From positions 1-64,000 of the forward strand of contig NZ_AOLY01000040.1 in the NCBI RefSeq assembly GCF_000336635.1: a stretch of 64,000 bases of DNA, written 5' to 3'. Origin of the DNA: Haloarcula japonica DSM 6131 (lineage in GTDB: Archaea; Halobacteriota; Halobacteria; Halobacteriales; Haloarculaceae). The notes beneath the pieces are model-generated. The model saw only the letters and a list, made by a program, of their open reading frames with translations, was not told the DNA's origin and made no database searches. Positions 4,014-39,369 of this stretch are shown piece after piece. A program made the translations under genes and the position numbers. Position 1 is the stretch's first letter; the number at the start of each line of letters is the position of its first letter.

Positions 4014-6429
4014 CGACGAGGGATTGCCGGGTCATAGTCATAATGAGGATCTTGCCCGGGACCTCTCAGTATTCGACATTACGATGATCGGTATCGGTGC
4101 CATGATCGGTGCCGGAATCTTCGTCTTGACTGGGCTCGCTGCTGGTCAAGCAGGCCCTGGACTCGTGATGGCCTTCGCATTCAACGGGTTCATCACCATC
4201 TTCACGGGGATGGTCTATGCGGAGCTGGGGTCAGCAATCCCGGAAGCCGGCGGCGGGTATCTCTGGGTTCGCGAGGCACTCGGACGGTCACAAGCATTCC
4301 TCGCCGGCTGGATGTCTTGGTTCGCCCACGCCGTCGCTGGCTCGCTGTACACGCTCGGCTTCGGGGCGTTCGTTCACCTATTACTGACGGACTACTTCGG
4401 CATTGCCCTCTTCGAGCCAGTCGATCTGTTCTTACTCACAATCGGTCCAGAGAAGGTATTCGCAGTGTTCGCGGGAGCGCTTTTCGCGTACATCAATTTC
4501 CGTGGCGCCAAGGAAACTGGACTCGCTGGCAACATCGTGACCATGGTCAAGGTCACAGTCATCGTCATCCTCATCGCGTTTGGTTTGGGCTACATCTTCG
4601 GGAATCCGGCGGAAGCAAGCGATCGATTCCAACCGTTCCTTCCACGTGACTTTGGTGGTGTATTCATCGCGATGGGGCTGACCTTCATCGCCTTCGAGGG
4701 GTACGAGATCATCGTTCAATCCGGCGAAGAGGTCGTCAATCCGAAGAAATCCGTGCCGAAGGCGGTCTTCTACTCGATGTCCGTCGTCGTCACGATTTAC
4801 ATGCTCGTGGCAATCGTACTCATCGGGGCGGTCACAGTCACCCCCGACCTCTTCCAACTGGCGCAGGAAGGTGCTGCATCGGGTGCTCACGGTGCGACAA
4901 ACCTGCCTCCGGTTCCGGATAATATCGAAGACGCCGCTGTATGGGAAATCCTCGGTCATCTCGGAGAGCTCGGTCTCGCTCGCGCTGCGGGCCAGATAAT
5001 GCCGTACGGGACGGTCGTTATCCTCGTGGCCGGTATCTTCTCGACGCTCTCTGCCCTCAATGCGACTACCTATTCGTCGACGCGCGTCTCCTTCGCGATG
5101 GGTCGCGATCACGTTCTCCCCGACGCTTTCAGCGCAGTTCACGACGAGAAACGAACACCGCACATCGCTACAGCACTCTCAGGTGCCCTTATCGTCTTCA
5201 TGGCGGTAGCCCTCCCGATAGAGGCCGTCGCAGCTGCGACTGACGTGATGTTCCTCCTGTTGTTCCTCCAGGTGAACTACGCCGCTATTGTGATACGCCG
5301 AGAGTGGGGCGACCAGATCGATTACGGGTACGTGATGCCGTACTTTCCCTATGTCCCAATCATCGGAATTATCACCAAACTCGCCCTCGCAGTCTACCTG
5401 TTCAACTACAGCCCACTCGCGTGGTACGGAGCGATTGCGTGGATTCTCGTCGGCGTCGGAATCTTCTTCCTCTACTCGCGGAGTCGGGTCCGCGAAACCG
5501 AAGCAAAAGAGGAGACCCGTCTCATCACAGAAGAGCGAGCACCTGAACAACGAGGCTACCAAGTTCTCGTCCCGATTGCCAATCCCGATCATGCCGAACA
5601 GCTTATTCGTGCAGGGAGTGCCGTCGCTCGCCATCAAGACGGTGAGGTTCTGCTTACGAGTGTCGCCACAGTTCCCGAGCAAACGCCGCTGTCGGAAGGC
5701 CGTCGGTACGCTGATGAACAGCGGGAGCTACTCGACGAGGCGATGCAGTACGCTCCTGATGATGTCCCGGTACACCAGACCGTAACCATCGGCCATGATA
5801 TCGCGAAGAGCATCAACAACGTAGCCTATCAACGTGACAGCGATCTCGTGTTGCTCGGCTGGCGAGGGCAGCGGAAACATGTGTCCGATTACGCGCTGGG
5901 TTCAAACATCGACACCGTCGTCGAGAACGCCGAGTGTGATGTTGCTGTCCTAAAGACCGACGGGACGACGGATTCGAGCCGAGTCCTCGTTCCGACTGCA
6001 GGCGGACCGAACTCTGATCTCGCCGAGACCGTCGCCGCTGCATATGCTGGATCGGGTGCGGAAGTGACACTGTTCCACGTCGCGACCGATGGTGATGTCG
6101 ACGGTGATCGGTCGTTCCTTGAAAACAGACAAGAGGTGCTCGCTGAGTCTGATATCGATGTGGACATCGCAGTCGCAGAAGCCGGAGACATCACGCAAAC
6201 GATTCTCGACCACGCTCGTGATGGTGAGTTCGATTCGATCATCATCGGTGCAGCGGGTGAAGGGATTCTCCGTCGGGTACTGTTTGGCGAAATCCCAGAG
6301 ACGATCGGTGAAGAGTTCGAGGGTGAAGTCCTCATGGTACGCAAGCATCGGCCAGTCCAGTCAGCCGTGAAGCGGCTACTCGGCAAGTGGGTGGGCAAAG
6401 GCGCAAAAGCAACTAACCTCGGTGAGTGA
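4006..6429 (+). CDS. APC-family permease fused to two UspA domains
   Basis: An 807-residue protein. Residues about 20-465 form an amino acid-polyamine-organocation (APC) transporter with the start motif GIGAMIGAGIFVLTG and about 12 membrane helices. Two cytoplasmic universal-stress (UspA) domains follow, at about 515-645 and 655-790. The first keeps the nucleotide-binding pattern GWRGQRKHVSDYALGS. The second has a looser GAAGEGILRRVLFGE. Haloarchaeal proteins of this kind are usually annotated as cationic amino acid transporters, but the substrate is not shown by sequence. The UspA part probably senses ATP or energy state. I prefer the ATG at 4006; an in-frame GTG at 3997 is possible. A paralogue of the same design is at 15592-17865. 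Confidence 0.88.
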   Translation: MSDDEGLPGHSHNEDLARDLSVFDITMIGIGAMIGAGIFVLTGLAAGQAGPGLVMAFAFNGFITIFTGMVYAELGSAIPEAGGGYLWVREALGRSQAFLAGWMSWFAHAVAGSLYTLGFGAFVHLLLTDYFGIALFEPVDLFLLTIGPEKVFAVFAGALFAYINFRGAKETGLAGNIVTMVKVTVIVILIAFGLGYIFGNPAEASDRFQPFLPRDFGGVFIAMGLTFIAFEGYEIIVQSGEEVVNPKKSVPKAVFYSMSVVVTIYMLVAIVLIGAVTVTPDLFQLAQEGAASGAHGATNLPPVPDNIEDAAVWEILGHLGELGLARAAGQIMPYGTVVILVAGIFSTLSALNATTYSSTRVSFAMGRDHVLPDAFSAVHDEKRTPHIATALSGALIVFMAVALPIEAVAAATDVMFLLLFLQVNYAAIVIRREWGDQIDYGYVMPYFPYVPIIGIITKLALAVYLFNYSPLAWYGAIAWILVGVGIFFLYSRSRVRETEAKEETRLITEERAPEQRGYQVLVPIANPDHAEQLIRAGSAVARHQDGEVLLTSVATVPEQTPLSEGRRYADEQRELLDEAMQYAPDDVPVHQTVTIGHDIAKSINNVAYQRDSDLVLLGWRGQRKHVSDYALGSNIDTVVENAECDVAVLKTDGTTDSSRVLVPTAGGPNSDLAETVAAAYAGSGAEVTLFHVATDGDVDGDRSFLENRQEVLAESDIDVDIAVAEAGDITQTILDHARDGEFDSIIIGAAGEGILRRVLFGEIPETIGEEFEGEVLMVRKHRPVQSAVKRLLGKWVGKGAKATNLGE

Positions 6430-6837
6430 CCGAGGCACGGTTTCCGATTCCGAAGCGGCCGCGTTTAGCCCGCCAGATCAGTCGCTGAGTGGTCAAGTTG
6501 CGGGTGTAATCAAGCGACTCTGTGTCGTTGGGGCTCGAATTTCGATGCTGCTCTTCCTCCCGATAGGTGGCTATTATTGGTCTACCTACTCGGCGGATAT
6601 GCCCTCATCGGATTGGGGTTCTTGTCTCCTAGCTATGAATTTGTCTCCCTCACAGAGGCTGTCTATTTTGTCTGGCTGGGATTCCTAGCTGGCCTGGTTA
6701 TTTGTTCTGGCACCGGTGCACTCATGGGACTCACCTTCCTCAACGGGGGTGAAGGCCGAATCCACAATGAAGTCTCCATTCTGCAAACGGCTGTGAGGCG
6801 TTTTGAACCACCTTCCCGATTCTACGACTACCTTTGA
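6422..6837 (+). pseudogene. Frameshifted small membrane protein gene
   Basis: A GTG at 6422 overlaps the end of the APC permease by eight bases and opens a frame with a polar N-terminus and the start of a hydrophobic helix (MLLFLPIGG). Near 6567-6580 the hydrophobic character leaves that frame and continues in another (LLVYLLGGYALIGLGF, then two more helices), ending at 6837. Read together, the two frames give one three-helix membrane protein of about 137 residues. Either the gene has a one- or two-base indel, or the assembly has an error. If the downstream piece is translated alone, it would start near 6577. No family is recognised. Confidence 0.5.
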
Positions 6838-6853
6838 GCGACTCGCACGCCTC

Positions 6854-7564
6854 TCATAAACTGAACCTGTTCGAATTGTTCGTTTCGTGGTCCTCGTAAT
6901 GGCCGAAGATATCTGTCACCGCTGGTGTTGCTCCACTGCCAGAATACACCGTGAGCAAGTCACCGGCTTCGATGCGGGTCTGTCCCCGGGGGGTAATGGG
7001 GGAATCCGATTCGGACCGTTCAATCGCTACGACAAGTGTGTCCTCATCAAGCAGTCCCTCGTTGTCCGCTTCAACGAGGTTCAGACCGGCAATCGGTGCG
7101 TCCTCGGCGACCGTGATCTCGAACACTTCGGCGACATCGCCGACACGCATGTAATCAACAATCGACGGCCGATCCACAGACCGGAACAGTGATTCCGCGA
7201 TGAGGCGCTGTGGATTCTCCATTGTGTTGACGCCGATTTGCCTGAAGAGGTTCATGTGCTCAGGGTTATGGACGACTGAGACGATGCTAGGGATTTCGAG
7301 TTCCTGTGCGAGCAATGAGATCATGACATTGGTCGCATCCTGGTCCGTCGTTGAGATGAGCGCATCAGCCCGGTCCGCCCCGGCATCCTCCAACGTTTCC
7401 TTGATCGTCGCGTCCGCGTTGATGACTAAGCAGTCGAACTCATTAGCGACTTCGTCCGCTCTCGCAGCGTCTTTTTCGATGACGACGACTTCGTTTCCAG
7501 TTCCGGTTGCGATTTCAATGAGCGGCGTTCCGATATCGCCAGCTCCGACAGTGATTATGTACAT
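6854..7564 (-). CDS. trkA: TrkA-type NAD-binding regulator of potassium channel
   Basis: A 236-residue protein with an N-terminal Rossmann (RCK_N/KTN) domain at about 1-120. It starts VGAGDIGTPLI, has an acidic end to the second strand (VVIEKD), and the conserved NADATIKETLEDAGADRADA stretch split over helix and strand. The RCK_C/TrkA-C domain follows at about 140-225. TrkA proteins assemble on TrkH and gate it in response to nucleotides. It is about 75% alike by eye to the TrkA at 11092-11778, so the two arose by duplication. It is transcribed singly, opposite to the APC gene before it. Confidence 0.92.
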   Translation of the reverse strand: MYIITVGAGDIGTPLIEIATGTGNEVVVIEKDAARADEVANEFDCLVINADATIKETLEDAGADRADALISTTDQDATNVMISLLAQELEIPSIVSVVHNPEHMNLFRQIGVNTMENPQRLIAESLFRSVDRPSIVDYMRVGDVAEVFEITVAEDAPIAGLNLVEADNEGLLDEDTLVVAIERSESDSPITPRGQTRIEAGDLLTVYSGSGATPAVTDIFGHYEDHETNNSNRFSL

Positions 7565-7815
7565 GTGTTATCTGTCCTACTGGTGCCGTTTTTGGCTGCG
7601 TCCCTCATAATCAGTATCCCGTGTGAATCGCTCGTCTCGCTGTCTGCCGAAACACCGCAGACGTAATTGAGGGTTCACTTGGGGGAAAATTATGGTCCTG
7701 AAATAAAAACCTCGCTATCTTGCGTAATCCACATACTATCGGGAGGTAGGCCAGCAATCCGAAGAGGTGTAGAGTATAGTACGGGTCTAGAACGAGCGAA
7801 GAATCGCTCGGGTCC

Positions 7816-27985: not shown

Positions 27986-30900
27986 GTGAAACTGTCACGG
28001 CGCGACTTCCTGACCGCGGCGGGTGCGGGGACGGTCGGCGCGCTCGCCGAAGGAGCATGGGGTGCAACACAGTCCACGGAACCGATAACGAGCGTGGACA
28101 ACCCGCTCAAGTCCTATCCGAACCGGGACTGGGAGCAGGTGTACCACGACATCTACGCCTACGACGAGGTGGACTGGACGGTGTGTCACCCCAACTGCAC
28201 CCAGTCGTGTGCACTGAACTTCTACATGAAAAACGGGGTCCCGATACGGGCCGAGCAGGTGTACCACAACGAGGAGCCCTCGGTCGGCCCGTCGGGCTAC
28301 GAGGACGCCGGCGTCAGTCAGCACTGGAACCCCCGCGGATGCATGAAGGGGTTGTCCCTACACCGCCGGACGTTCGAACCGTCCCGCATCAAGTACCCGA
28401 TGGTTCGAAAGGGGTGGGACCCCGAGGACCCCAATCCAGAAGGACGGGGCGAGGACGAGTTCGAGCGCGTCTCCTGGGAGGAGGCTATCGACCTCATCGC
28501 GGAGAAGATGGCGAACTTAGAGGACAACAAGCGGTTCCACATCTTCAACGCCATCAAAGCCGACGGACTGTTCACCCGCCACGGTTCGGGTCGGCGACTC
28601 GCGTCTGTTTTCGGCGGCTGTGAGTGGACCGAGTACGACTGGTACGCCGACCTCCCGCCGGGCCACGTCATCACGACCGGCTACCAGACCTCCGACTCCG
28701 ACGCCGTCGCCTGGCGGAAGGCCGACTACACCATCATCCAAGGGAAGAACCTTATTCACAACAAACTCGCGGACAACCACTTCCTGCAGGAGACCCGCGA
28801 GCGCGGCGGGAAGATGGTCGGCGTCTACCCCGACTACTCGCCGACGGTCCAGAAGTGCGACCGGTGGCTGCCGGTCCGCCCCGGGAGCGACCCGGCGTTC
28901 GCCCTGGGCATGGCGCACGTCATCATGGACGAGGAGCTGTACGATGCCGAGTTCATGCGGAAGTTCACGAGCCTCCCGCTGTTGATCCGGGAGGATACCG
29001 GCAAATACCTGCGCGCACACGAAGTGTTCGAGGACCACGAGGGGCCCCCAGAGGACCTCGATGAGCAGCACGAGCACAACGACTGGGGCGATTTCGTCGT
29101 GCTGGGCGAGAACGGCGAGCCGGTCCCAATGACACGCGAGGAGGTCGGCGAGGAGATGCCGACCACCCCGCAGTTAGACGTCGCCAGCGACGTGGCACTA
29201 ACCGATGGCTCGACCGTCTCCGTCAGGAGCGACTTCGCCCGCCAGCGGGACAACATCATCGAGAACTACGACCCGGAGACGGTCGAGGAAATCACCACGA
29301 TTCCGGCGGACAAACTCGCCCAGACGGCGCGGGAGTTCGCCGACGCCGAGAAGGGCCAGTGGTTCACCGGCGAGGGGATCAACCACTGGTTCCACTCCAA
29401 CGACGCGCTCCAGCGGGCGGTGTTCCTCGTTCAGGCGATGCTCGGGAACATCGGCGACGCCGGTCAGGGGTACTACAACTACTCCGGCCAGTACAAGATC
29501 GAGCTGCTGGACGGGTACCCCCACTACGTCAACCCCGACGGCAACGCCGCCCACGGGATGTATCCCGGCTACGCTTTCGCCTTCTTCGGCGGCGAGAAAC
29601 TCGACCCGCACGATATCCGGGGCGATTTCGACCGCGAGATGGACCTCGTGCCACAGGGCGACGCCGAGGAGCCGGTGATGCCGAAAAACGCGGGGTCGTA
29701 CACCATGTCCAAGCCGTCGATCCTGTGGACGATGAACTGCAACCTCCTGAACCAGACGAAACACCAGGAGCACGTCATCGAGAACTTCGTCAAACACCCC
29801 GACACGGAGAACGACCTGTTCATCGTCTCGGATATGCACATGACCTACTCCGCCCGGCACGCCGACATCGTGCTCCCGGTGCCGTCCTGGCTAGAGTGTG
29901 AGTACCCCGACATCACCATCGGTCCGGAGAACCCCTTCGTCCAGATGGACCACGGCGTGATGGACCCCATGTACGACACCAAGCAGGACGGGGAAGCCGT
30001 CGCGATGGTGGCCGAGAAACTGGACGAGAAGATCCCGCCGGCGGAGCGTAACGTCGACTCCTATCGGGCGTACTTCGAGGAGTTCCTGGATGAAGACGGC
30101 GACGTGACCAACTACATCCAGGATACCTTCGACCGCGGGATGACGACCCAAAGCATCGATGTCGAGGACCTGGAGGACGGGCCGGAACGCCTGGACCTGA
30201 AAACCTATCCGCGGATCCCGTTCTACTCGCAGGTCCACGAAGACCGGCCGTTCTACACGAAGACCGGCCGGATGGAGTTCCACAAGGAGGAGGACCGCTT
30301 CATCGAACTCGGTCGGGACGACATCGACCACGTCGAGAGCGTCGAGGGAACCCCCTACGGCGTGAACAAGAAGTGGGACGAGGCCAAGGACGAGGAGAAC
30401 CCGCTGTACCACGACGAGGGCAACCAGTTCTACTACAACACGCCACACCCGAAGTACCGAACCCACTCCTCGTGGGGGATGACAGACTGGAACCTCATCT
30501 GGGCCTCGCGTGACTTCGGCAGCGTCAGCGGCGATCCAGAAGGAACTGACCGCCTCGTCGACGACTTCTCGTTCCCCACCGGCGCCGGCGAGTCCGAAGA
30601 CGTCGCGCCGCTCGGTGAGGCGTTCGTCGAGATGCACCCGAGCGACGCCGAGAACATCGACGTGGAGAACGGCGACTACGTCCGCATCACGGGCAAGCGC
30701 GGCGACCTCGTCGTCAGGGCGATGGTCAGCGAGCGCCAGCGCCCGCGGTCGGCCGGCGACATGGGACAGCTGACGCTGTGGCACGGCTGGTGGCCCCAGC
30801 ACTTCCCCGACGACGAGGCCGACGAGGACAGCGTCAAGGGGTACAACACGATCACCAACATCTGGCTCGACCCGCTGCAGGAGACCGACGACCTCGTCCA

Positions 30901-31177
30901 CAAGGCGGTGTTCGGCGACCCGAACGTCTCCGACATCGTCGACGAGGACATCGCCTGGCACGGCGCGGAACTGGAGCACGGCTACGAGGAGACGGTGTGG
31001 GCCCCGACGGGGACCAACCGGGACGACCTCGTGGACGTCGAGAAGTACGAGGAAGCGGACTGGTGGCCCGGCGACGCCCGCCGGGACGACCTCGTCGAGG
31101 ACTACATCGGCGGGTCACTGCAGCCAAGCGGCAGCGGGAGTAGTACCGGCACGAAGACCCCAGGAGGCGATGACTGA
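27986..31177 (+). CDS. Molybdopterin oxidoreductase, type II DMSO-reductase family alpha subunit
   Basis: A 1063-residue catalytic subunit. The N-terminus SRRDFLTAAGAG is a Tat signal, so the enzyme works outside the membrane. The iron-sulphur FS0 site is Cys67-x3-Cys71-x3-Cys75 with Cys119 (RGCMKG). The overall sequence is nearest to NarG and to the type II enzymes (selenate, chlorate, dimethylsulfide, ethylbenzene): for example RFHIFNA, TIIQGKN, VGVYPDYSPTVQKCDRWLPV and DMHMTYSARHADIVLPVPSWLE. The molybdenum Asp is probably Asp237 or Asp239 in YQTSDSDAVAW. The start is GTG at 27986. Partner genes follow with overlapping ends. The substrate (nitrate, chlorate, selenate, DMSO or other) is not fixed by sequence. 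Confidence 0.9.
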   Translation: MKLSRRDFLTAAGAGTVGALAEGAWGATQSTEPITSVDNPLKSYPNRDWEQVYHDIYAYDEVDWTVCHPNCTQSCALNFYMKNGVPIRAEQVYHNEEPSVGPSGYEDAGVSQHWNPRGCMKGLSLHRRTFEPSRIKYPMVRKGWDPEDPNPEGRGEDEFERVSWEEAIDLIAEKMANLEDNKRFHIFNAIKADGLFTRHGSGRRLASVFGGCEWTEYDWYADLPPGHVITTGYQTSDSDAVAWRKADYTIIQGKNLIHNKLADNHFLQETRERGGKMVGVYPDYSPTVQKCDRWLPVRPGSDPAFALGMAHVIMDEELYDAEFMRKFTSLPLLIREDTGKYLRAHEVFEDHEGPPEDLDEQHEHNDWGDFVVLGENGEPVPMTREEVGEEMPTTPQLDVASDVALTDGSTVSVRSDFARQRDNIIENYDPETVEEITTIPADKLAQTAREFADAEKGQWFTGEGINHWFHSNDALQRAVFLVQAMLGNIGDAGQGYYNYSGQYKIELLDGYPHYVNPDGNAAHGMYPGYAFAFFGGEKLDPHDIRGDFDREMDLVPQGDAEEPVMPKNAGSYTMSKPSILWTMNCNLLNQTKHQEHVIENFVKHPDTENDLFIVSDMHMTYSARHADIVLPVPSWLECEYPDITIGPENPFVQMDHGVMDPMYDTKQDGEAVAMVAEKLDEKIPPAERNVDSYRAYFEEFLDEDGDVTNYIQDTFDRGMTTQSIDVEDLEDGPERLDLKTYPRIPFYSQVHEDRPFYTKTGRMEFHKEEDRFIELGRDDIDHVESVEGTPYGVNKKWDEAKDEENPLYHDEGNQFYYNTPHPKYRTHSSWGMTDWNLIWASRDFGSVSGDPEGTDRLVDDFSFPTGAGESEDVAPLGEAFVEMHPSDAENIDVENGDYVRITGKRGDLVVRAMVSERQRPRSAGDMGQLTLWHGWWPQHFPDDEADEDSVKGYNTITNIWLDPLQETDDLVHKAVFGDPNVSDIVDEDIAWHGAELEHGYEETVWAPTGTNRDDLVDVEKYEEADWWPGDARRDDLVEDYIGGSLQPSGSGSSTGTKTPGGDD

Positions 31178-32358
31178 TGGCACAAACGTACAATCCACAA
31201 CTCGGCCGCGAGCATAGCTACCCATACGAACACCGCGAAGAGGAGCGCGACTACCACTGGGGCATGGTCATCAACACGAACCGGTGTATCAACTGCAACA
31301 CCTGCTCCTTTGCCTGTAAGTCCACCTGGACCAGCGGCGAGGGCGAGGAGTACATGTGGTGGATGAACGTCGAGACCGAGCCCTACGGCGGCTACCCGAT
31401 GGGCTGGGACATGCGGCTGCTCGACGACCTGGAGGCCGACCAGACTATCTTCGACGCCGCCGAGAACGGCGAGCAGGTCCGCGGCTACATCGCCGAGAAG
31501 CAGGCCTGGGAGTACCCCGCGCTGGGCGACGACCAGGTCCACGGGGAGTACCCCGAGGGCGAGGTCGTCGAGTCAGACCTGGAGAACGACGAGTACCACG
31601 ACATCTGGCAGTTCTACCTCCCGCGGCTCTGTAACCACTGCAAGAACCCGGCCTGTCTGGCGGCCTGCCCGCGCAAGGCCATCTACAAGCGCGAGGAGGA
31701 CGGCATCGTCCTGCTGGACCAGGAGCGCTGTCGCGGCTACCGCCGCTGCGTGAAGGCCTGTCCGTACCACAAGCCGATGTACAACCCCGAAACGGGCGTC
31801 ACCGAGAAGCCGGTCGGCTGCTACCCCCGCATCGAGGAGGGGAACGTTCCCCGGTGTGTCTCCTCCTGCATCGGGAAGACGCGGCTCCACGGTAACATCA
31901 ACCGCGGGCCTGACGCCGGACCAGCGGGGGGCAAATCCTCCGCCGCGTCGGGGCGCTCGCCCATCAACTATCTCGTCCACTCCGACGAGAAGGTGGCCCT
32001 GCCGCTGTACCCGCAGTTCGGGACCCAGCCGCAGGTGTTCTACATGCCGCCGTACCACGTCCCGCCGGAGTTCCTGACCCAGATGTTCACGCCCAACACC
32101 GAGGTCAAGGAAAACGAGTGGCCGGGCGACACCTACGAGGAGTCGGTCCGCATCGTCCAGGAGCGGGCTCGCAACCCCAGCCACGAAGTGCTGGGCATCC
32201 TCCAACTGTTCGGCGCGACGACGCGGCTCATCGAGACCTACAACGTCAAGGAAAACCGCGTGAAGGGATGGGACCGCAACGGCGAGAAGGTCGTCGACGT
32301 GCCCATCGAGGAGCCCATGGAGGTCCGCGAGGGCGAACAGTGGACCAACCAGCCCTGA
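31177..32358 (+). CDS. Iron-sulphur beta subunit of type II molybdoenzyme
   Basis: A 393-residue protein with four cysteine clusters: CINCNTCSFACKSTW, CNHCKNPACLAACPRKA, CRGYRRCVKACPYHKP and CxxxC-type CVSSC. In the third cluster Tyr stands where an ordinary ferredoxin has Cys (CRGYRRC), which in NarH and its relatives marks a 3Fe-4S centre. It closely follows the NarH/SerB/PcrB/EbdB plan (WTSGEGEEYMWWMNVETEP). It carries electrons between the haem gamma subunit and the molybdenum site. The ATG shares a base with the alpha stop (TGATG). It lacks its own signal and would be exported with alpha. Confidence 0.93.
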   Translation: MAQTYNPQLGREHSYPYEHREEERDYHWGMVINTNRCINCNTCSFACKSTWTSGEGEEYMWWMNVETEPYGGYPMGWDMRLLDDLEADQTIFDAAENGEQVRGYIAEKQAWEYPALGDDQVHGEYPEGEVVESDLENDEYHDIWQFYLPRLCNHCKNPACLAACPRKAIYKREEDGIVLLDQERCRGYRRCVKACPYHKPMYNPETGVTEKPVGCYPRIEEGNVPRCVSSCIGKTRLHGNINRGPDAGPAGGKSSAASGRSPINYLVHSDEKVALPLYPQFGTQPQVFYMPPYHVPPEFLTQMFTPNTEVKENEWPGDTYEESVRIVQERARNPSHEVLGILQLFGATTRLIETYNVKENRVKGWDRNGEKVVDVPIEEPMEVREGEQWTNQP

Positions 32359-32368
32359 GGTGCGCACA

Positions 32369-33088
32369 ATGAAGAACACGCCACAACACCACACGCGACG
32401 TGCCGCGCTGTACGGGTTCGCCGCGACGGTCTTCCAGTACCCGGACGAGACCGTCATCGCCGATCTGCAGGACCAAGAGGTACAGGACGCCGTCCGGCAG
32501 GCCGGCGCTGCGCTCGAACTCGAAACTGAGGTCAACACGCTGCTGGACGCGCTGGACGGGGTTGACCGCGACTCGCTCGAACCGGCGTACAACCGACTGT
32601 TCGGCCTCCCGGGCGACGGGGGGACCTATCCGGTCGTCCCCTACGAGGCCCACTACACGACCGGCGATGAGGTCAACGAGAGCCAGCGCCGCATCGCCAC
32701 GGTCGTGGGCCTGCTGGAGGAGTTCGGGCTCGAAATCAGCGACGAGTTCGACGAGCGCCACGACCACGTCACCGTTGAACTGGAGCTGCTACAGGTGCTG
32801 GCCGCACAGCGGGCGGTCGCCCTCGACGGCGACGACGACGAGACGGCCGTCCGGCTCGCACGAGCGGGCGCGACGGTGCTGGACGAGCATCTCGGCAATT
32901 TTGTCCCTGCGTTCGCTCACCGAGTCCGGAAGACCGTCGACGGCGACGGCAGTTCCGACCGAGAGGGGCCCGAAGCGAGCACCGTCTACGCCGCCGCCGC
33001 GGACCTGGCGGCGGCCCTGGTCGAGTTCGACGAGGCGAGCCATCCCGACCCGGTCTCGCCCGGAACGGGGGTGAGAGCCGATGGTTGA
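32369..33088 (+). CDS. TorD/DmsD-family chaperone for molybdoenzyme
   Basis: A 239-residue all-helical protein (RRAALYGFAATVFQYPDETVIADL, then LEPAYNRLFGLPGDGG, VPYEAHYT) matching the TorD/NarJ/DmsD family, which holds the alpha subunit for cofactor loading and Tat export. The ATG at 32369 has a good ribosome-binding site (GAGGTG, seven bases away); a GTG at 32360 lies inside that site and is less likely. It overlaps the next gene by eight bases. Confidence 0.85.
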   Translation: MKNTPQHHTRRAALYGFAATVFQYPDETVIADLQDQEVQDAVRQAGAALELETEVNTLLDALDGVDRDSLEPAYNRLFGLPGDGGTYPVVPYEAHYTTGDEVNESQRRIATVVGLLEEFGLEISDEFDERHDHVTVELELLQVLAAQRAVALDGDDDETAVRLARAGATVLDEHLGNFVPAFAHRVRKTVDGDGSSDREGPEASTVYAAAADLAAALVEFDEASHPDPVSPGTGVRADG

Positions 33089-34106
33089 ACTCGACTACGA
33101 GGCGGCCCGGCGGGCGACAACGGCGACGGCGCTCGTTATGGCGCTGCTCGTCGCCGGCCAGATGGCCGTGGCGGCGGCCGTCACCGGCGGCCAGCAGCCT
33201 TTGGTCGCGACTGACGAAGTCCCACAGACCGCCGACAGCGACCGCTGGTCGGATGCCCCATCGCGGACCGTCTCGCTGTCGAAACAGCAGATGGCCGTCC
33301 CCTACGGCGGCGGGAGCATCGACGAGATAGAGGTGCAGGCGCTGACCAACGAGACCCACGTCGCCTTCCGTCTGACCTGGACGGACCCGACGAAAGACAC
33401 GAACATCCGGTCGCCGAAGAACTACAGCGACGCGGCGGCCGTGATGCTCCACAGCGGCGAGAAACCGCCGATCACGATGGGTGCCGGCGGCGACCCGGTC
33501 AACATCTGGTACTGGCGCTCGCAGTGGCAGTACGGGAATGACAAGAACGCGGAGTGGAGCAACGACATGTACGCCTACCCGAACCCGGACGAGGAGACCA
33601 AACCGGGGCTCGCGGCCGGGAACCCGCTGTCACAGAGCCAGTACGAGAACTACGGCCAGAACTACTACGCGGCCGGCTACGGGTCGCTGAGCAACGCACC
33701 ACAACAGAACGTAGACGCACAGGCCACTCGGAACGGTGACGAGTGGTCCGTCGTCTTCGTCCGGGAGCATACCGGCGAAGGCCAGCACGACGCGACGTTC
33801 TCACAGAACGAGACGATGTATCTCGCCTTCGCTGTCTGGAACGGCAGCGCCGACGAGGTCAACGGCAAGAAGTCACTGACGATGCAGTACAGCACGCTCG
33901 ACACGGAGTCCGGCGAACTCACCGCACCCGAGAGCGGGGGAAGCGGAGACAGTTCGAGTACAGGTTCAGGTAGCGCCGCCGGCGGGGGAGACTCCAGCGG
34001 TGACGGCGGTTCGGGCGGCAGCAGCAATCCGCTGTACACGTCGCTCGGGACGCTCATAGCGGCAACGGTCGCCGGCTGGACGGTCCTCTACTGGAGGCTG
34101 GCCTGA
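33081..34106 (+). CDS. Haem-binding gamma subunit, ethylbenzene dehydrogenase type
   Basis: A 341-residue protein with a signal or anchor helix at about 17-36, an extracellular domain, a Gly/Ser-rich linker (about 275-320) and a C-terminal helix (about 322-338). The domain matches the haem b gamma subunit of type II enzymes (EbdC, DdhC, SerC, PcrC): MGAGGDPVNIWYWRSQWQ supplies the likely axial Met, and NGKKSLTMQYS the likely Lys. Most bacterial gamma subunits are soluble; here the extra C-terminal helix fixes the complex to the outer face of the membrane. It receives electrons from, or gives them to, membrane carriers. Confidence 0.87.
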   Translation: MVELDYEAARRATTATALVMALLVAGQMAVAAAVTGGQQPLVATDEVPQTADSDRWSDAPSRTVSLSKQQMAVPYGGGSIDEIEVQALTNETHVAFRLTWTDPTKDTNIRSPKNYSDAAAVMLHSGEKPPITMGAGGDPVNIWYWRSQWQYGNDKNAEWSNDMYAYPNPDEETKPGLAAGNPLSQSQYENYGQNYYAAGYGSLSNAPQQNVDAQATRNGDEWSVVFVREHTGEGQHDATFSQNETMYLAFAVWNGSADEVNGKKSLTMQYSTLDTESGELTAPESGGSGDSSSTGSGSAAGGGDSSGDGGSGGSSNPLYTSLGTLIAATVAGWTVLYWRLA

Positions 34107-35020
34107 TGAGCTACGAGAACTGGAGCGCACGCGGTCGGACGCCGGGCGAGTCTGAGGCGGAGGTCCGCGACGCACTCGACGCCTCACGGGTCCGAACCCG
34201 GCAGGACGCCGCAATTGCGCTGGTCGATGCGGCGGAGTCCGGCCTCGACAGGGAGACCATCGACGCGCTGGGCGAGTGCGCACTGGACGACGACGACCCC
34301 GAGGTGCGGCAGTTCGCTATAGAAGCGCTTGGGGTCGCCGGGGCCGCGCCGGCCGTCGTCCGGCAGGCCCTCGACGACCCGGAGCCGTGGGTCCGAGCCG
34401 AAGCCGTCGTCGCCCTCTCGCGGGTCGGCGGCGACGCTAACCAGTTGGAGGGGGCGCTTGACGACGACAGCGGCTGGGTCCGACGGAACGCCGTCATCGC
34501 GATGGGCAAGCGCGGCGACGCAGACCAGTCGCTGCTGGTCGACTGCATCAAGACCGACCCCCATCCAGCGGTCCGTGAGTACGCAGCCCAGTTCCTCGGC
34601 GGCGTCGCCGAGGACGTGTCGGAGGCCGAGCGAATCCTGGCCGCGATGTTGGCCCGGGAGCCGAACGCCTTCGCCCGGGCGAAAGCCGCCGAGAGCCTCG
34701 GCGAACTCGCGACCGACCGGGCCGAGCAGGCGCTCGAAGCCCACGGCGTGACCGACCAGAGCGAGGACGTTGCCCGCGCGGCCAAGCAGGCGCTCGCGGG
34801 TGCCCGCGGGACTGATCCCGAGGAGCTAGATGTCGAAATCGGGCCGCCGTCTGCTCCCGGTAGCGGGCCGGACACACCTGCAGAGCAGTCCGTCGACGGG
34901 TACGATCCTGCCGGCTCCTTTGGCTCGGCCCGATCCGGGAGCGGGTCGCCGGCCCCCGGCGGCGCGCCCGGGTTCGAGCCCCGACGCGATCTGAACACCG
35001 ACCCGGAGGACAGGACCTGA
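34106..35020 (+). CDS. HEAT-repeat protein in molybdoenzyme operon
   Basis: A 304-residue acidic protein. Residues about 20-235 hold six or so HEAT/PBS-lyase repeats (DDDPEVRQFAIEALGVAG, DDPEPWVRAEAVVALSRVG, DDDSGWVRRNAVIAMGKRG and so on). The last 70 residues are Gly/Pro/Ser-rich and disordered. HEAT proteins are scaffolds. No signal peptide is seen, so it stays in the cytoplasm. The start overlaps the gamma stop (TGATG). The same kind of gene occurs in other archaeal type II molybdoenzyme operons, where an assembly role has been supposed. Confidence 0.85.
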   Translation: MSYENWSARGRTPGESEAEVRDALDASRVRTRQDAAIALVDAAESGLDRETIDALGECALDDDDPEVRQFAIEALGVAGAAPAVVRQALDDPEPWVRAEAVVALSRVGGDANQLEGALDDDSGWVRRNAVIAMGKRGDADQSLLVDCIKTDPHPAVREYAAQFLGGVAEDVSEAERILAAMLAREPNAFARAKAAESLGELATDRAEQALEAHGVTDQSEDVARAAKQALAGARGTDPEELDVEIGPPSAPGSGPDTPAEQSVDGYDPAGSFGSARSGSGSPAPGGAPGFEPRRDLNTDPEDRT

Positions 35021-35022
35021 CG

Positions 35023-35634
35023 ATGCCATACGAACTCGACTCGGCCGGAACGACAGCGGAACAGGGCGAAGACAAGTCAGAAAGCGACGATGGCGGCGGT
35101 CTCGAGTCATCGCTGGGCATGACGATTCCAGACGACCACGTCGGCGCGTTCGTCGCCGAAGCGCTGGAAGACCCTGAACGAGCGACGACTTGGGATGACG
35201 TCGTCGACACGATGGTCGCGCCAGCCGCACGGGACGCCTGGGCGGAGCTGAGCCCGGTCGAGCAGGCCACGGAAGTGCTCTCGAAGGCAGCCGAGTTCGA
35301 CCAGCGGGCCATCGAACACTTCGAGGCCGTCCCGCTGGACGGGGACCGCAGCGAGGCAGAGACGGACATCGACGAGGGCCTGCGGTGTCGACGCAACGCC
35401 GACACGTTCCGGGACGGCGTCGCCGCCGCCTACGGCGACGGGCGGCTCGACGACGAGGGCCTCGTCGACGCACTGGAGGCCGCGGAGTTCGACACCGAGG
35501 TTATCGCCGAGCGCGAGGACCTAATAGAGCGTATCGACAGCGTGTTCGAAATCGACTACCGTCCCTACGGCGGGACGCTGATGGATGATGACGACGGCCC
35601 CGAGCCGGATACCGAACACGGGGAGACGTGGTAA
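35023..35634 (+). CDS. Conserved operon protein of unknown function
   Basis: A 203-residue, strongly acidic soluble protein with a disordered N-terminus (1-30), a helical middle (HVGAFVAEALEDPERATTWDDVVDTMVAPAARDAWAELSPVEQ) and helical C-terminal part ending in an acidic tail. There are few cysteines (one, in LRCRRNADTF), so it is not an Fe-S protein. It lies two bases after the HEAT gene and one base before the Mrp gene, so it is a true operon member. I do not recognise the family; a role in assembly or maturation of the complex is inferred. Confidence 0.7.
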   Translation: MPYELDSAGTTAEQGEDKSESDDGGGLESSLGMTIPDDHVGAFVAEALEDPERATTWDDVVDTMVAPAARDAWAELSPVEQATEVLSKAAEFDQRAIEHFEAVPLDGDRSEAETDIDEGLRCRRNADTFRDGVAAAYGDGRLDDEGLVDALEAAEFDTEVIAEREDLIERIDSVFEIDYRPYGGTLMDDDDGPEPDTEHGETW

Positions 35635-35635
35635 T

Positions 35636-36883
35636 ATGTCCGGGAAAGAAAACGAACCCTCGGAAGACGCGATCAGGGACGAACTTCGAACTGTGGCCGC
35701 CCCCGACGGCGACGAGAACGTGGTCGCCGCGGGGTTGGTGTCGTCCGTGACCGTCACCGATGGGACCGTCACCGTCGACCCGACACTGTCCGGTATGGAG
35801 CCCGCCACAGCAGACACGCTCGCCGACCGGATGCGGACAGCGGTGCTAGAGTGTGGCGGTGTCGAGGAGGTCCGCGTAGAAACGGACGTTGCGGAGCCGG
35901 ACCACGGTACCGTCGTGCCCGGCGTGGACCGCATCGTCGCCGTCGCCAGCGCGAAAGGCGGCGTCGGCAAGACCACCGTGGCGACCCAGTTGGCGCGTGG
36001 ACTGGCCGCCTCCGGCGAGCGGGTCGGCCTGTTCGATGCCGACGTGTACGGCCCAAATACGCCGGAGCTACTCGACATCGAGGGACCGCTCGGCTCGACC
36101 GACGACGGCCGTGCCGAGCCGGTCGAGGTCGACAGCCTGCAAGTCGTCAGCGTCGGCTTGATCGCCAACGACGAACCGATGGCCTGGCGCGGTGCGATGG
36201 CCCACGAAGCAGTCGAGGGACTGCTGACCGACGCCGCCTGGGACGTCGACACTCTGGTGCTTGACCTGCCGCCGGGGACCGGCGACATCGTGCTGACGAC
36301 GCTGCAGTCGTTCCCCGTCGACGGCGCGGTGTTCGTGACGACGCCGTTCCCGACTGCCGCCGGCGATACGGAGCGCTCGACAGCACTGTTCCGCGAGGAG
36401 GGCGTCCCGGTACTCGGGGCCGTTGTCAACATGGCCGGGTTCACCTGTCCCACCTGTGGCGACGACCACGCGCCGTTCGGCAGCGACCCCGACCTCAGTG
36501 CGGACGTACTCGCGGAGCTCCCTATCGACAAATCGCTTCGCTCGACCGAGGGTGAGGTACCCGCGGCCTTCCGGGACCTCGGCGACGATGTACGCGAAGC
36601 CCTTGCGGACCGGACAACGGTGACGGTTCCCGAGACTGCGCTCGACCTCCGTGGCGTCCCCGACCGGGCGCGTATCGAACAGGTTCGCGCGGAGTTCGGC
36701 GCGCTCGCTCCCGGTGAGTCGCTCCATCTCGTAACTGACACCCGTCCGGGCGACGTCAGCGGAGCTCTCGAAGATCTGGCCTCGGCACCGCCACGGGTGG
36801 CCGTTGAACAGAAGGGGTCTAGCGTGTGGGCGCTACAGATATCCAAGACCGCCTCTGACCCAGCCGAAGACGTGACCTGCTAA
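35636..36883 (+). CDS. Mrp/ApbC-family Fe-S cluster carrier ATPase
   Basis: A 415-residue protein: an N-terminal MIP18/DUF59 domain (about 8-85) and a ParA-like P-loop ATPase (ASAKGGVGKTTVATQLARGL at about 103-122, then DADVYGPNTPELL and VLDLPPGTGDIVLT). A CPTCG pair at about 265-269 is the likely cluster-binding Cys motif. An extra C-terminal domain of about 90 residues follows. Mrp proteins transfer iron-sulphur clusters to target enzymes. As the last gene of the operon it would load the clusters of the alpha/beta subunits before export. The frame starts after TAAT; an earlier in-frame ATG at 35585 overlaps the upstream gene. Confidence 0.88.
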   Translation: MSGKENEPSEDAIRDELRTVAAPDGDENVVAAGLVSSVTVTDGTVTVDPTLSGMEPATADTLADRMRTAVLECGGVEEVRVETDVAEPDHGTVVPGVDRIVAVASAKGGVGKTTVATQLARGLAASGERVGLFDADVYGPNTPELLDIEGPLGSTDDGRAEPVEVDSLQVVSVGLIANDEPMAWRGAMAHEAVEGLLTDAAWDVDTLVLDLPPGTGDIVLTTLQSFPVDGAVFVTTPFPTAAGDTERSTALFREEGVPVLGAVVNMAGFTCPTCGDDHAPFGSDPDLSADVLAELPIDKSLRSTEGEVPAAFRDLGDDVREALADRTTVTVPETALDLRGVPDRARIEQVRAEFGALAPGESLHLVTDTRPGDVSGALEDLASAPPRVAVEQKGSSVWALQISKTASDPAEDVTC

Positions 36884-37025
36884 CCGACGGTTGAACGCCC
36901 GGGTTACCAGACGTTCCCGGTTCGCTTTTCCCTATCAGCTAAGTGGTGTGGCCGGTTCGAGATGAGAGATGACTCTCCGCACCGACGAGAGGGGGTGCTT
37001 CTCTACCGGCGCTCGACTGACGCGT

Positions 37026-37089
37026 CGGTGTTGCAAAACACCGAAGTTATTTATATTTATTTCGCAAATATGCAACACAGTGTACACTG
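37026..37089 (+). promoter_or_regulatory. Promoter with two palindromes before HTH-nucleotidyltransferase cassette
   Basis: A TATA box (TTATTTATATTTAT, about 37047-37060) lies some 25-30 bases before the GTG at 37080. Directly upstream of it is CGGTGTTGCAAAACACCG (37026-37043), with perfect seven-base arms. Over the start codon is the perfect palindrome CAGTGTACACTG (37078-37089). GTGTTGCA upstream and TGCAACAC (37071-37078) also form an inverted pair flanking the TATA box. These look like operators for the encoded helix-turn-helix protein. Confidence 0.6.
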
Positions 37090-38000
37090 AGGCAGAGCTT
37101 CGGGCGCTGGAAGCCCTGCAAGGAGAGTCGACAGTTTCGGGACTCGCCGAGGAACTGGACCGGAGTCGCAGTTACGTGTCCGAACTCGTTACCCGGATGG
37201 AATCGAAGGGGTTGGTTCACACCAGCCGTGAGGGAAAGCAGAAACGGATTAATCGATCAGACGCCCGAGCCATCGAACTGTTCGACAGTTTCGTCCAACA
37301 GTACACCCATATCCCGTTTCCCGAATTGCTCGGCGGTGCAACGCTACGTATTCTGTACTACCTACAGTCACCGGCAAGTGCCACCCAACTCGCGGAGCAA
37401 GTCGGCGTTCATCGGAGCACGGTACACCGGTCGTTGTCCCCGCTGGAGAACCGCGGGATGATATACAAGTCAGATGGGAAGTACACGCTCAACGATGACT
37501 TCAAGGAGCTATCTACCGTGGCCCGTGAGTTTGCGCACTTGCGGCACAGACACCGCATCGAAGACCACACAGAGTCGTTCACAATCCTCTGGGAATCGCT
37601 GGACGACTGTCTCGTCCAGACCCGCGCCGAGATCAAGGCGGATGCGTTCCTCCTAACGGGGCCGGAATTGTTCCAAGCGTACGATCTCCCGTTGATGGCT
37701 CGTCAGCGTCGGTACTACCTGTATTCGGAGACAGTTGAAGAGGTATCGCCGGCGGAGCTGTGTTGTCATATGCTCGTGGTCGATGACGGAACGCGCTCGC
37801 AGTCCTACTGCCTCCTCTTGCTCAGCGAGGCGGCAATCGACCGCGACGAGGTGCTCCAAGCCGCACAAAAGTACGAGGTCGACGAACAGGTGTCGAACCT
37901 CCTCGAATACCTCGATACCGAGGGAGAGAGCCGGTCGGGACGCCTCCCGCGGTGGGAGGAGTTCCGTGACCTCGCCGACGAGTACGGGGTGGCAGTATGA
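37080..38000 (+). CDS. Winged-helix regulator of the nucleotidyltransferase cassette
   Basis: A 306-residue protein with two winged-helix domains: residues about 3-65 (AELRALEALQGESTVSGLAEELDRSRSYVSELVTRMESKGLV, MarR/ArsR-like) and about 82-140 (RILYYLQ, ATQLAEQVGVHRSTVHRSLSPLENRGMI). The C-terminal 160 residues may contact the partner protein. The GTG at 37080 is chosen: it stands 25 bases from a TATA box, and the earlier ATG at 36969 would precede that TATA box and add odd residues. It overlaps the nucleotidyltransferase gene by four bases (ATGA). It probably represses its own operon, like AbiEi antitoxins. Confidence 0.78.
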   Translation: MYTEAELRALEALQGESTVSGLAEELDRSRSYVSELVTRMESKGLVHTSREGKQKRINRSDARAIELFDSFVQQYTHIPFPELLGGATLRILYYLQSPASATQLAEQVGVHRSTVHRSLSPLENRGMIYKSDGKYTLNDDFKELSTVAREFAHLRHRHRIEDHTESFTILWESLDDCLVQTRAEIKADAFLLTGPELFQAYDLPLMARQRRYYLYSETVEEVSPAELCCHMLVVDDGTRSQSYCLLLLSEAAIDRDEVLQAAQKYEVDEQVSNLLEYLDTEGESRSGRLPRWEEFRDLADEYGVAV

Positions 38001-38809
38001 GGCGGCGGTTCGACAGCGAGTACATCGAGTCTGAACTGCGACGGGTCGGCAGGCAACTCGAAACTGAACTGACTGTCTATCTGATCGGCGGCGGTGCGAT
38101 GGCGTTCCGCGGTCTCAAGAACACCACCAAGGACATCGACCTCATCGTTAGCTCCGGCGACGAGCTTCGAGTGCTACAGGCAGCCTTGCTGGCAAACGGG
38201 TATGATATCGTCAAAGAGCCCGGAGAGGAGTACGACGACCTCGGAGCGCAGCGGATCCTCGAGAACGACGACGGGTGTCGTATCGACATTTTCAACCAAC
38301 AGGTGATCGACAAGCTCGTCCTTTCGGAGGGGATGCGCCGGCGGAGCGAAGCCTATCTCGACGCCGGGAGGCTGTCGGTCGCGCTGGTCAGTTCCGAGGA
38401 CATCTTCCTGTTCAAGTCGGTCGCCGGGCGCACGGACGACATCGAGGACATGTTTTCGCTCGTGCAGACCGAACTCGATTTCGACGTTATCGAGGACGAG
38501 CTTGAGCTGCAAAGCGACTTGCTGGGACAGGAGCTATTCGTCACCCATGCGAACGAGGCATTACTGAAACTGGAAGAGCAGCACAACATCTCGACGCCGT
38601 TGGCCGAGCGAATCTCCGAAATCACCGAACGCGTGTACCGAGAACTCGAAGTGTTGCAGGCCTTCGACGAGTCGATCTCCCGGGCAGAGTTGAAAGCCGC
38701 GGTCGACCTTTCTCCCGAGGACGTAGACGAGGCTCTCGAACATCTCGTAGCGAAGGATGTCATCGCGGTCGAAGACGACGAGATAGGCCGGAAGTCGACC
38801 ACCCTCTAA
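37997..38809 (+). CDS. Nucleotidyltransferase-fold protein (AbiEii/DUF6036-like)
   Basis: A 270-residue protein. Residues about 20-130 show the polymerase-beta-type nucleotidyltransferase core: IGGGAMAFRG, then TKDIDLIV (the metal-binding DxD), then an acidic CRIDIFN strand. The C-terminal half is helical (LSEITERVYRELEVLQAFDES) and ends with a winged-helix-like part (ISRAELKAAVDLSPEDVDEALEHL). Proteins of this type paired with a helix-turn-helix partner include AbiEii toxins, which modify tRNA or other targets. Start overlaps the regulator (ATGA). Toxin activity is inferred from the pairing; it could also be a metabolic nucleotidyltransferase. Confidence 0.78.
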   Translation: MRRRFDSEYIESELRRVGRQLETELTVYLIGGGAMAFRGLKNTTKDIDLIVSSGDELRVLQAALLANGYDIVKEPGEEYDDLGAQRILENDDGCRIDIFNQQVIDKLVLSEGMRRRSEAYLDAGRLSVALVSSEDIFLFKSVAGRTDDIEDMFSLVQTELDFDVIEDELELQSDLLGQELFVTHANEALLKLEEQHNISTPLAERISEITERVYRELEVLQAFDESISRAELKAAVDLSPEDVDEALEHLVAKDVIAVEDDEIGRKSTTL

Positions 38810-39369
38810 CAGGGCCATCACCCTCGACGAGTGCGGCGCTGAACGAGTGGGCGTTTAGCAGCCCTCTGGTGTTCTGATGGCTCCAAAAGAGTGGCATGTA
38901 TCTGAGACACCATCTCGGCATCAGGTCTATAGTCAGAAACGAAGGAACGCTTCCACCGTAGAAACGATCCCTCTGCAGGAAGACGGATTTCGTGAGGACG
39001 ACCGCTGATCGGACTCAAACTCCTTCCGTTCGTCGACACGCCGGGGATCACCTACAACTATCGCGTGGCGTTCGAGGACGGCACCGGCGGCGTGATATGC
39101 GAGGAAACCCTCCCCGTCTTCGTCGATGCTGCGCAAGAGGACGCCCAGCAGGCGCTTGGTGAACGTGTCGTCGAGGGCGACTCGGTGGCAGCAAAGCCCG
39201 ACGTCGAGAGCAGATCATCTCCCTTGCGCCAGAGGTTGAGAACTACTGCTTGACTCTTCCACTCTGAATTGAGTTGGTACTGTAGCCAGAGTAGCCGAGA
39301 TATCTATCGGCTAACGAGATTGTCTCGGCAAAAGTGAAGTGGGCCGAAACTCTTGGTGAGTAGTATTCG
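38810..39369. other. Degraded region after the HTH-nucleotidyltransferase cassette
   Basis: No intact gene. A plus-strand frame from about 39003 to 39250 looks protein-like (LPFVDTPGITYNYRVAFEDG, then GGVICEETLPVFVDAAQEDA) but lacks a start and ends early; it may be the wreck of another gene. I cannot name the source family. Confidence 0.35.

Follow-up and report, generated by a model that had tools for sequence, protein, structure and literature searches.

The gene pair and its predicted operator

The window, meaning the whole stretch of 64,000 nucleotides of Haloarcula japonica DSM 6131 that was analyzed, forms the beginning of a 234-kb contig in a 4.28-Mb genome whose nearest DNA relatives are Haloarcula species. 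It holds a bicistron in which a regulator gene comes first and a nucleotidyltransferase (NTase) gene second (Table 1). The original prediction had described a double winged-helix regulator and an NTase-fold protein with a 4-bp gene overlap, and the open reading frames, Pfam, AF2 models, and Foldseek bore this out. A second copy of the pair, alike in order and overlap and with an NTase that is 50% identical, was found on another contig of the genome.

Table 1. Positions in the window of the gene pair, its promoter elements, and the flanking BREX-5 remnants
Feature	Position	Strand	Description
BREX scar, left	36969-37018	+	First ~16 brxA codons fused to last brxC codons at TCGCTCGACT-like repeat
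Palindrome 1 of the original prediction	37026-37043		Present; no conservation beyond part shared with dyad
Operator-like dyad	37029-37077		TGTTGCA-N6-CGAA-N15-TTCG-N6-TGCAACA; conserved; 49 bp, centered on TATA box
TATA-box region inside dyad	37047-37057	+	Position conserved; predicted leaderless promoter
Palindrome 2 of the original prediction	37078-37089		Present; consists mainly of start codons (GTG TAC AC); palindromic pairing not conserved
Regulator gene (putative antitoxin)	37080-38000	+	306 aa, GTG start; Pfam and AF2 model
ATGA overlap, regulator stop/NTase start	37997-38000	+	Same 4-bp overlap in all 23 inspected pairs
DUF6036 NTase gene (putative toxin)	37997-38809	+	270 aa; NTase fold, helical part, C-terminal wHTH at ~residues 205-265
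Cargo remnant	38858-39003	+	5' end of 347-aa gene that other BREX-5 loci carry between brxC and pglX
BREX scar, right	38994-39207	+	Internal brxHII helicase fragment; L249 16665-16882, 89% identity; BrxHII by PADLOC
BREX scar, brxHII 3' end	39202-39269	+	Aligns to L249 17184-17251

The regulator, modeled by AF2 with a pLDDT of 93.7, has one winged helix-turn-helix (wHTH) at about residues 4 to 56, a second one at about residues 86 to 138 that is TrmB/IclR-like by Pfam, and a C-terminal domain at residues 187 to 304. The last of these had been called large and unlike classic AbiEi, correctly so: it is the Pfam domain HVO_2833_C (PF24271; E=2.9e-44, 150.7 bits against a curated cut-off of 34) and not the AbiEi domain. 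The protein is a clear member of the HVO_2833_C regulators, many of which have no NTase partner, and literature text searches for the Pfam names of the family (HVO_2833_C, DUF6036) found no paper. We place the start of the gene at GTG 37080, where the V/M-Y-T-E beginning is conserved in relatives and the start is leaderless relative to the TATA box. An upstream in-frame ATG at 36969 was rejected as the start, being the start codon of a deleted brxA.

The 49-bp dyad ends 2 nt before this GTG and is present in one perfect copy in the genome, the next-best site having three mismatches. In the upstream regions of 29 relatives, its boxes were kept in 90% of cases versus a background of 58%, the conservation at random complementary positions. 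Two other palindromes had originally been named as operators. Both sequences exist, but they are ordinary by chance count: the 64 kb holds 17 perfect 12-bp palindromes (∼16 expected) and 5 such repeats with 7-bp arms (∼4 expected). Conservation of their base pairs in the same relatives was 56% and 65%, no better than background, and we therefore rejected them as operators; the conserved element is the dyad.

In other subfamilies, the dyads keep this layout and the symmetry about the TATA box but differ in their letters, as in TGTAACA...TGTTACA and GTCTCAAA...TTTGAGAC. The dyads of cluster 2 are centered at −27.5 in 29 of 29 cases, and those of cluster 0 regulators are less regular by ungapped score. 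Box letters that change while symmetry is kept are the pattern given by an operator evolving with its repressor. The AbiE operator, TGTTGCTTTTA-N27-TAAAAGCAACA (Dy et al. 2014, PMC3985639), has the outer hexamers TGTTGC/GCAACA and the 49-bp span in common with the dyad; the common letters may be coincidence, because the other subfamilies differ in them, and the geometry is alike. On the basis of its sequence and conservation, we predict that the dyad is the operator of the regulator. A leaderless TATA promoter would then yield a two-gene mRNA, a regulator dimer with four winged helices would bind the four dyad boxes around the TATA box and block transcription, and the ATGA overlap would couple synthesis of the NTase to that of the regulator.

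The nucleotidyltransferase and known toxin families

The second protein matched DUF6036 (PF19502) with an E-value of 4.9e-7 and 30.1 bits, above the curated cut-off of 23.6. Its AF2 model (pLDDT 93) gave as best Foldseek matches in the PDB MenT1 (E=1.2e-6), a tRNA nucleotidyltransferase toxin of Mycobacterium tuberculosis, and then JHP933, with E-values of 1e-6 to 1e-5. Although MenT1 is the closest solved fold (8an5, 8an4), the NTase is only ∼17% identical to it. A C-terminal wHTH resembling those of the regulator was seen in the AF2 model and in a profile search from a clean alignment; the finding rests on this alignment, as an iterated NTase HMM had recruited regulator wHTHs.

Thirteen residues are invariant in 43 diverse NTase sequences: G31, G32, K41, T44, D46, D48, D97, K106, R116, K140, R145, D148, and D151. 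Motifs I and II, hG[GS]x(n)DhD, are present as G31-G32-x13-D46-I-D48, the spacing being x13 here versus x15 in AbiEii (PMC3985639). Motifs III and IV are represented by K140, R145, D148, and D151, with a Lys-x4-Arg spacing shorter than that of AbiEii. The positive residue before DxxD is missing in this subfamily, where it is D147, and is Arg in another. Mutation of catalytic residues abolishes the toxicity of AbiEii (PMC3985639) and MenT1 (PMC10435456), and by motif alignment the positions needed in both are invariant here; T39, D41, K137, and D152 of MenT1 correspond to T44, D46, K140, and D151.

The likeness to AbiE (AbiEi/AbiEii, DUF1814) thus extends over an antitoxin-first two-gene operon, a winged-helix repressor with a separate C-terminal domain, and an NTase with the GG...DxD motif and, apart from the deviations just described, counterparts of the Lys...Arg and DxxD motifs. 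The differences lie in the families. The NTase belongs to DUF6036 and not to PF08843, and it carries the extra C-terminal wHTH; a Pfam search gave no match to PF08843 (AbiEii/DUF1814) at E≤1. Comparison by hhalign with haloarchaeal AbiEii profiles was not significant (probability 0.4%), with the motifs nonetheless in register, and true AbiEii proteins (PF08843 matches) in related genomes occupy other loci. The regulator has two wHTHs and the PF24271 domain, whereas AbiEi has an N-terminal wHTH and the AbiEi C-terminal domain; the PADLOC AbiEi model matched it weakly (E=0.007), on the wHTH. MenA1 inhibits MenT1 by direct binding (PMC10435456), and none of our searches found the regulator to be a MenA1 relative. 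In AbiE, the antitoxin neutralizes the toxic NTase and the two form no stable complex.

Could the NTase instead be a benign modifying enzyme, acting for instance on an antibiotic or a metabolite, under a ligand-responsive regulator and with no toxin involved? The TrmB/IclR-like second wHTH of the regulator is consistent with this, LnuA, an antibiotic NTase, is among the weaker Foldseek matches, and we know of no tested function for DUF6036. We consider this explanation unlikely, given that the best fold matches are MenT1 and JHP933 and that the NTase is essentially never found without the regulator, as described below.

Distribution and decay of the pair in haloarchaea

The pair is widespread in haloarchaea and often found on plasmids. 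In a class-wide sample of 292 haloarchaeal genomes, the regulator was present in 182 and the NTase in 141, and the NTase was found in 94 plasmid records; phage records and viral contigs held no NTase relatives. The neighbors of the pairs include IS605-type and DDE transposases, integrases, and Orc/Cdc6 genes, and the transposases and integrases recur near pairs and do not figure among the top neighbors in matched controls. PADLOC matches to Cas12f among the neighbors were rejected as defense genes; the E-value cut mixes IS605 OrfB with Cas12f models, and we read these matches as transposons.

The regulator lies directly upstream in 147 of 148 NTases checked, and the one exception is a fragment. 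NTase homologs without the regulator in metabolic operons, which would have spoken against a toxin, were looked for and did not occur. Among 136 distinct loci, both genes were intact in 74, and 38 had a regulator without an NTase. An intact regulator next to a broken or displaced NTase was seen in 18 loci, and an intact NTase with a broken regulator in none (sign test, 4e-6). A strict count gives 12 to 0 (about 2e-4), because four of the 18 loci involve another type of wHTH-NTase pair, located 2.5 kb downstream, and two are weak. The polarity is the same in strains KBTZ03 and R1 of Halobacterium salinarum, a laboratory model: an intact regulator lies beside an NTase with a frameshift, and R1 has an additional insertion. 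That insertion (L347 3085-3601), of roughly 0.5 kb, encodes a small protein; the frameshift is common to both strains, and KBTZ03 lacks the insertion.

The NTase depends on the regulator, and the regulator survives alone, so this polarity fits a toxin and its antitoxin. It also argues against a benign NTase, as do the plasmid and mobile context and the several divergent copies per genome. The regulator may have other duties, since many genomes retain it in the absence of the NTase, and such a regulator would also survive. The roles might also be reversed, with the NTase as the antitoxin and the regulator or another gene as the toxic part. In HEPN/MNT systems, the MNT enzyme AMPylates the toxin; MNT antitoxins thus exist, and the NTase fold alone does not separate toxin from antitoxin. 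Pfam found no HEPN partner beside the NTase, its partner being the PF24271 regulator, and dozens of loci have kept a regulator alone, which is not so for NTases; a toxic regulator would give the opposite pattern. We regard this arrangement as very improbable.

These data suggest that the pair is probably a toxin-antitoxin operon that resembles AbiE, represses itself, and belongs to a haloarchaeal family of its own. The AbiE assignment of the original prediction thus stands for the order of the bicistron, the inverted repeats at the promoter, the AbiEii/MenT residues and fold, the dependence of the NTase on the regulator, and the defense and mobile context; it fails at the level of profile families, as there is no PF08843 match, true AbiEii lies elsewhere, and the C-terminal domain is not that of AbiEi. 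Once the regulator is lost, through deletion of the locus or viral host shut-off, the NTase would be freed. Judging from its fold and catalytic residues, the free enzyme would arrest growth by adding nucleotides to an RNA, the likeliest site being the tRNA acceptor end, as for MenT. The regulator would neutralize it, probably through the HVO_2833_C domain. The family, found in about half of the sampled haloarchaeal genomes, is a putative archaeal counterpart of AbiE/MenAT that can be tested directly.

Some orphan regulators have other gene pairs nearby. In L180, L185, and L188 (∼6210-7575), a different haloarchaeal pair with abutting or overlapping open reading frames (wHTH, 224 aa; NTase, 231 aa) sits about 2.5 kb from an orphan PF24271 regulator. 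In L027, L037, and L188, orphan regulators adjoin other toxin-antitoxin-like pairs (VapBC-like and RelBE-like, with the translations judged by eye).

The pair and the BREX-5 operon

The decayed DNA beside the pair had been taken as typical of defense islands, and this proved apt: it is the scar of a BREX-5 operon deleted on both sides, with the pair left intact. The left scar aligns to L242 7993-8041 and to the 3' end of brxC in L249, and no match to BrxC was found in the genome of the window. Collinearity between H. sebkhae and the window extends over the left junction and the first of the right junctions, and both have the pair intact. The dN/dS of the pair is 0.16 to 0.20, a value that may be affected by recombination of BREX-plus with BREX-minus alleles; the H. 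sebkhae regulator has a dS of 0.07 to a BREX-plus allele and of 0.26 to the window.

The full operon in Haloarcula reads brxA-brxC-brxB-brxC-[pair]-pglX-pglZ-pglX-brxHII, with each BREX gene confirmed by PADLOC (E-values from 4e-115 to 0) and annotated as BREX-5 by NCBI. The closest orthologs of the pair reside in this locus, and the scar in the window derives from it. Placement of the pair after brxC was seen in G169, G016 (H. argentinensis), G115 (H. amylolytica), G242, G079 (a Halorhabdus tiamatea plasmid), and G254; in G242 and G079, one cargo gene intervenes. It is an optional cargo and not a core component, occupying the brxC-pglX slot in 6 of 19 close BREX-5 loci (a weak BrxC-like match in L088 was left out of the count), and the other loci hold different cargo there. 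Several interchangeable genes (of 347, 391, 226, and 210 aa, among others) make the brxC-pglX gap a hotspot for cargo, and cargo genes downstream of brxC were seen in L259, L262, L263, L265, L266, L267, L268, and L271.

One might ask whether the pair is a BREX-5 accessory, consisting of a BREX regulator and an NTase effector that acts only with BREX. In bacteria, BREX has a regulator of its own, BrxR, and in six BREX-5 loci of the sample and two Halobacterium salinarum strains, the pair lies within the operon on the same strand, right after or near brxC. However, it is at this slot in only a minority of close BREX-5 loci, the majority of pairs in the family lie far from brxC, and the pair has its own promoter and unique dyad and is intact where BREX is gone. 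An accessory role of this kind therefore seems quite unlikely to us. CreTA, a CRISPR-regulated toxin-antitoxin guard known in Haloarcula, is likewise a toxin module embedded in a haloarchaeal defense locus, but its repression depends on the CRISPR effector (PMC9458426), which it guards. The pair here carries its own repressor and outlives BREX; BREX is therefore not needed by the pair.

An operon removed on both sides of an intact pair is a natural experiment, and its outcome is what an addictive module predicts. The best reading is that of a toxin-antitoxin pair that forms a family distinct from AbiE by profile and has survived the deletion of a BREX-5 operon. The pair would move between replicons and genomes, with the brxC-pglX slot holding it as one cargo module among several. 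AbiE is not mentioned in the main text of a recent BREX survey (PMC12839542), as judged by a term search. More tentatively, it is possible that this separate archaeal family (a DUF6036 NTase with its winged helix and an HVO_2833_C repressor) acts as a backup abortive-infection or addiction module in BREX-5, and that the NTase reads DNA via its winged helix as a corepressor or sensor. To our knowledge, such control through the winged helix of the NTase itself has not been described for AbiE or MenAT.

A deletion beside the pair was also seen in related Haloarcula (L242 8129-8362, L240 7655-7888, and L256 12244-12477), where a molybdopterin/nitrate-reductase-like operon has been lost and the start of its first gene is fused to the end of an Mrp gene. 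The window keeps this operon (27986-36883) and has lost BREX.
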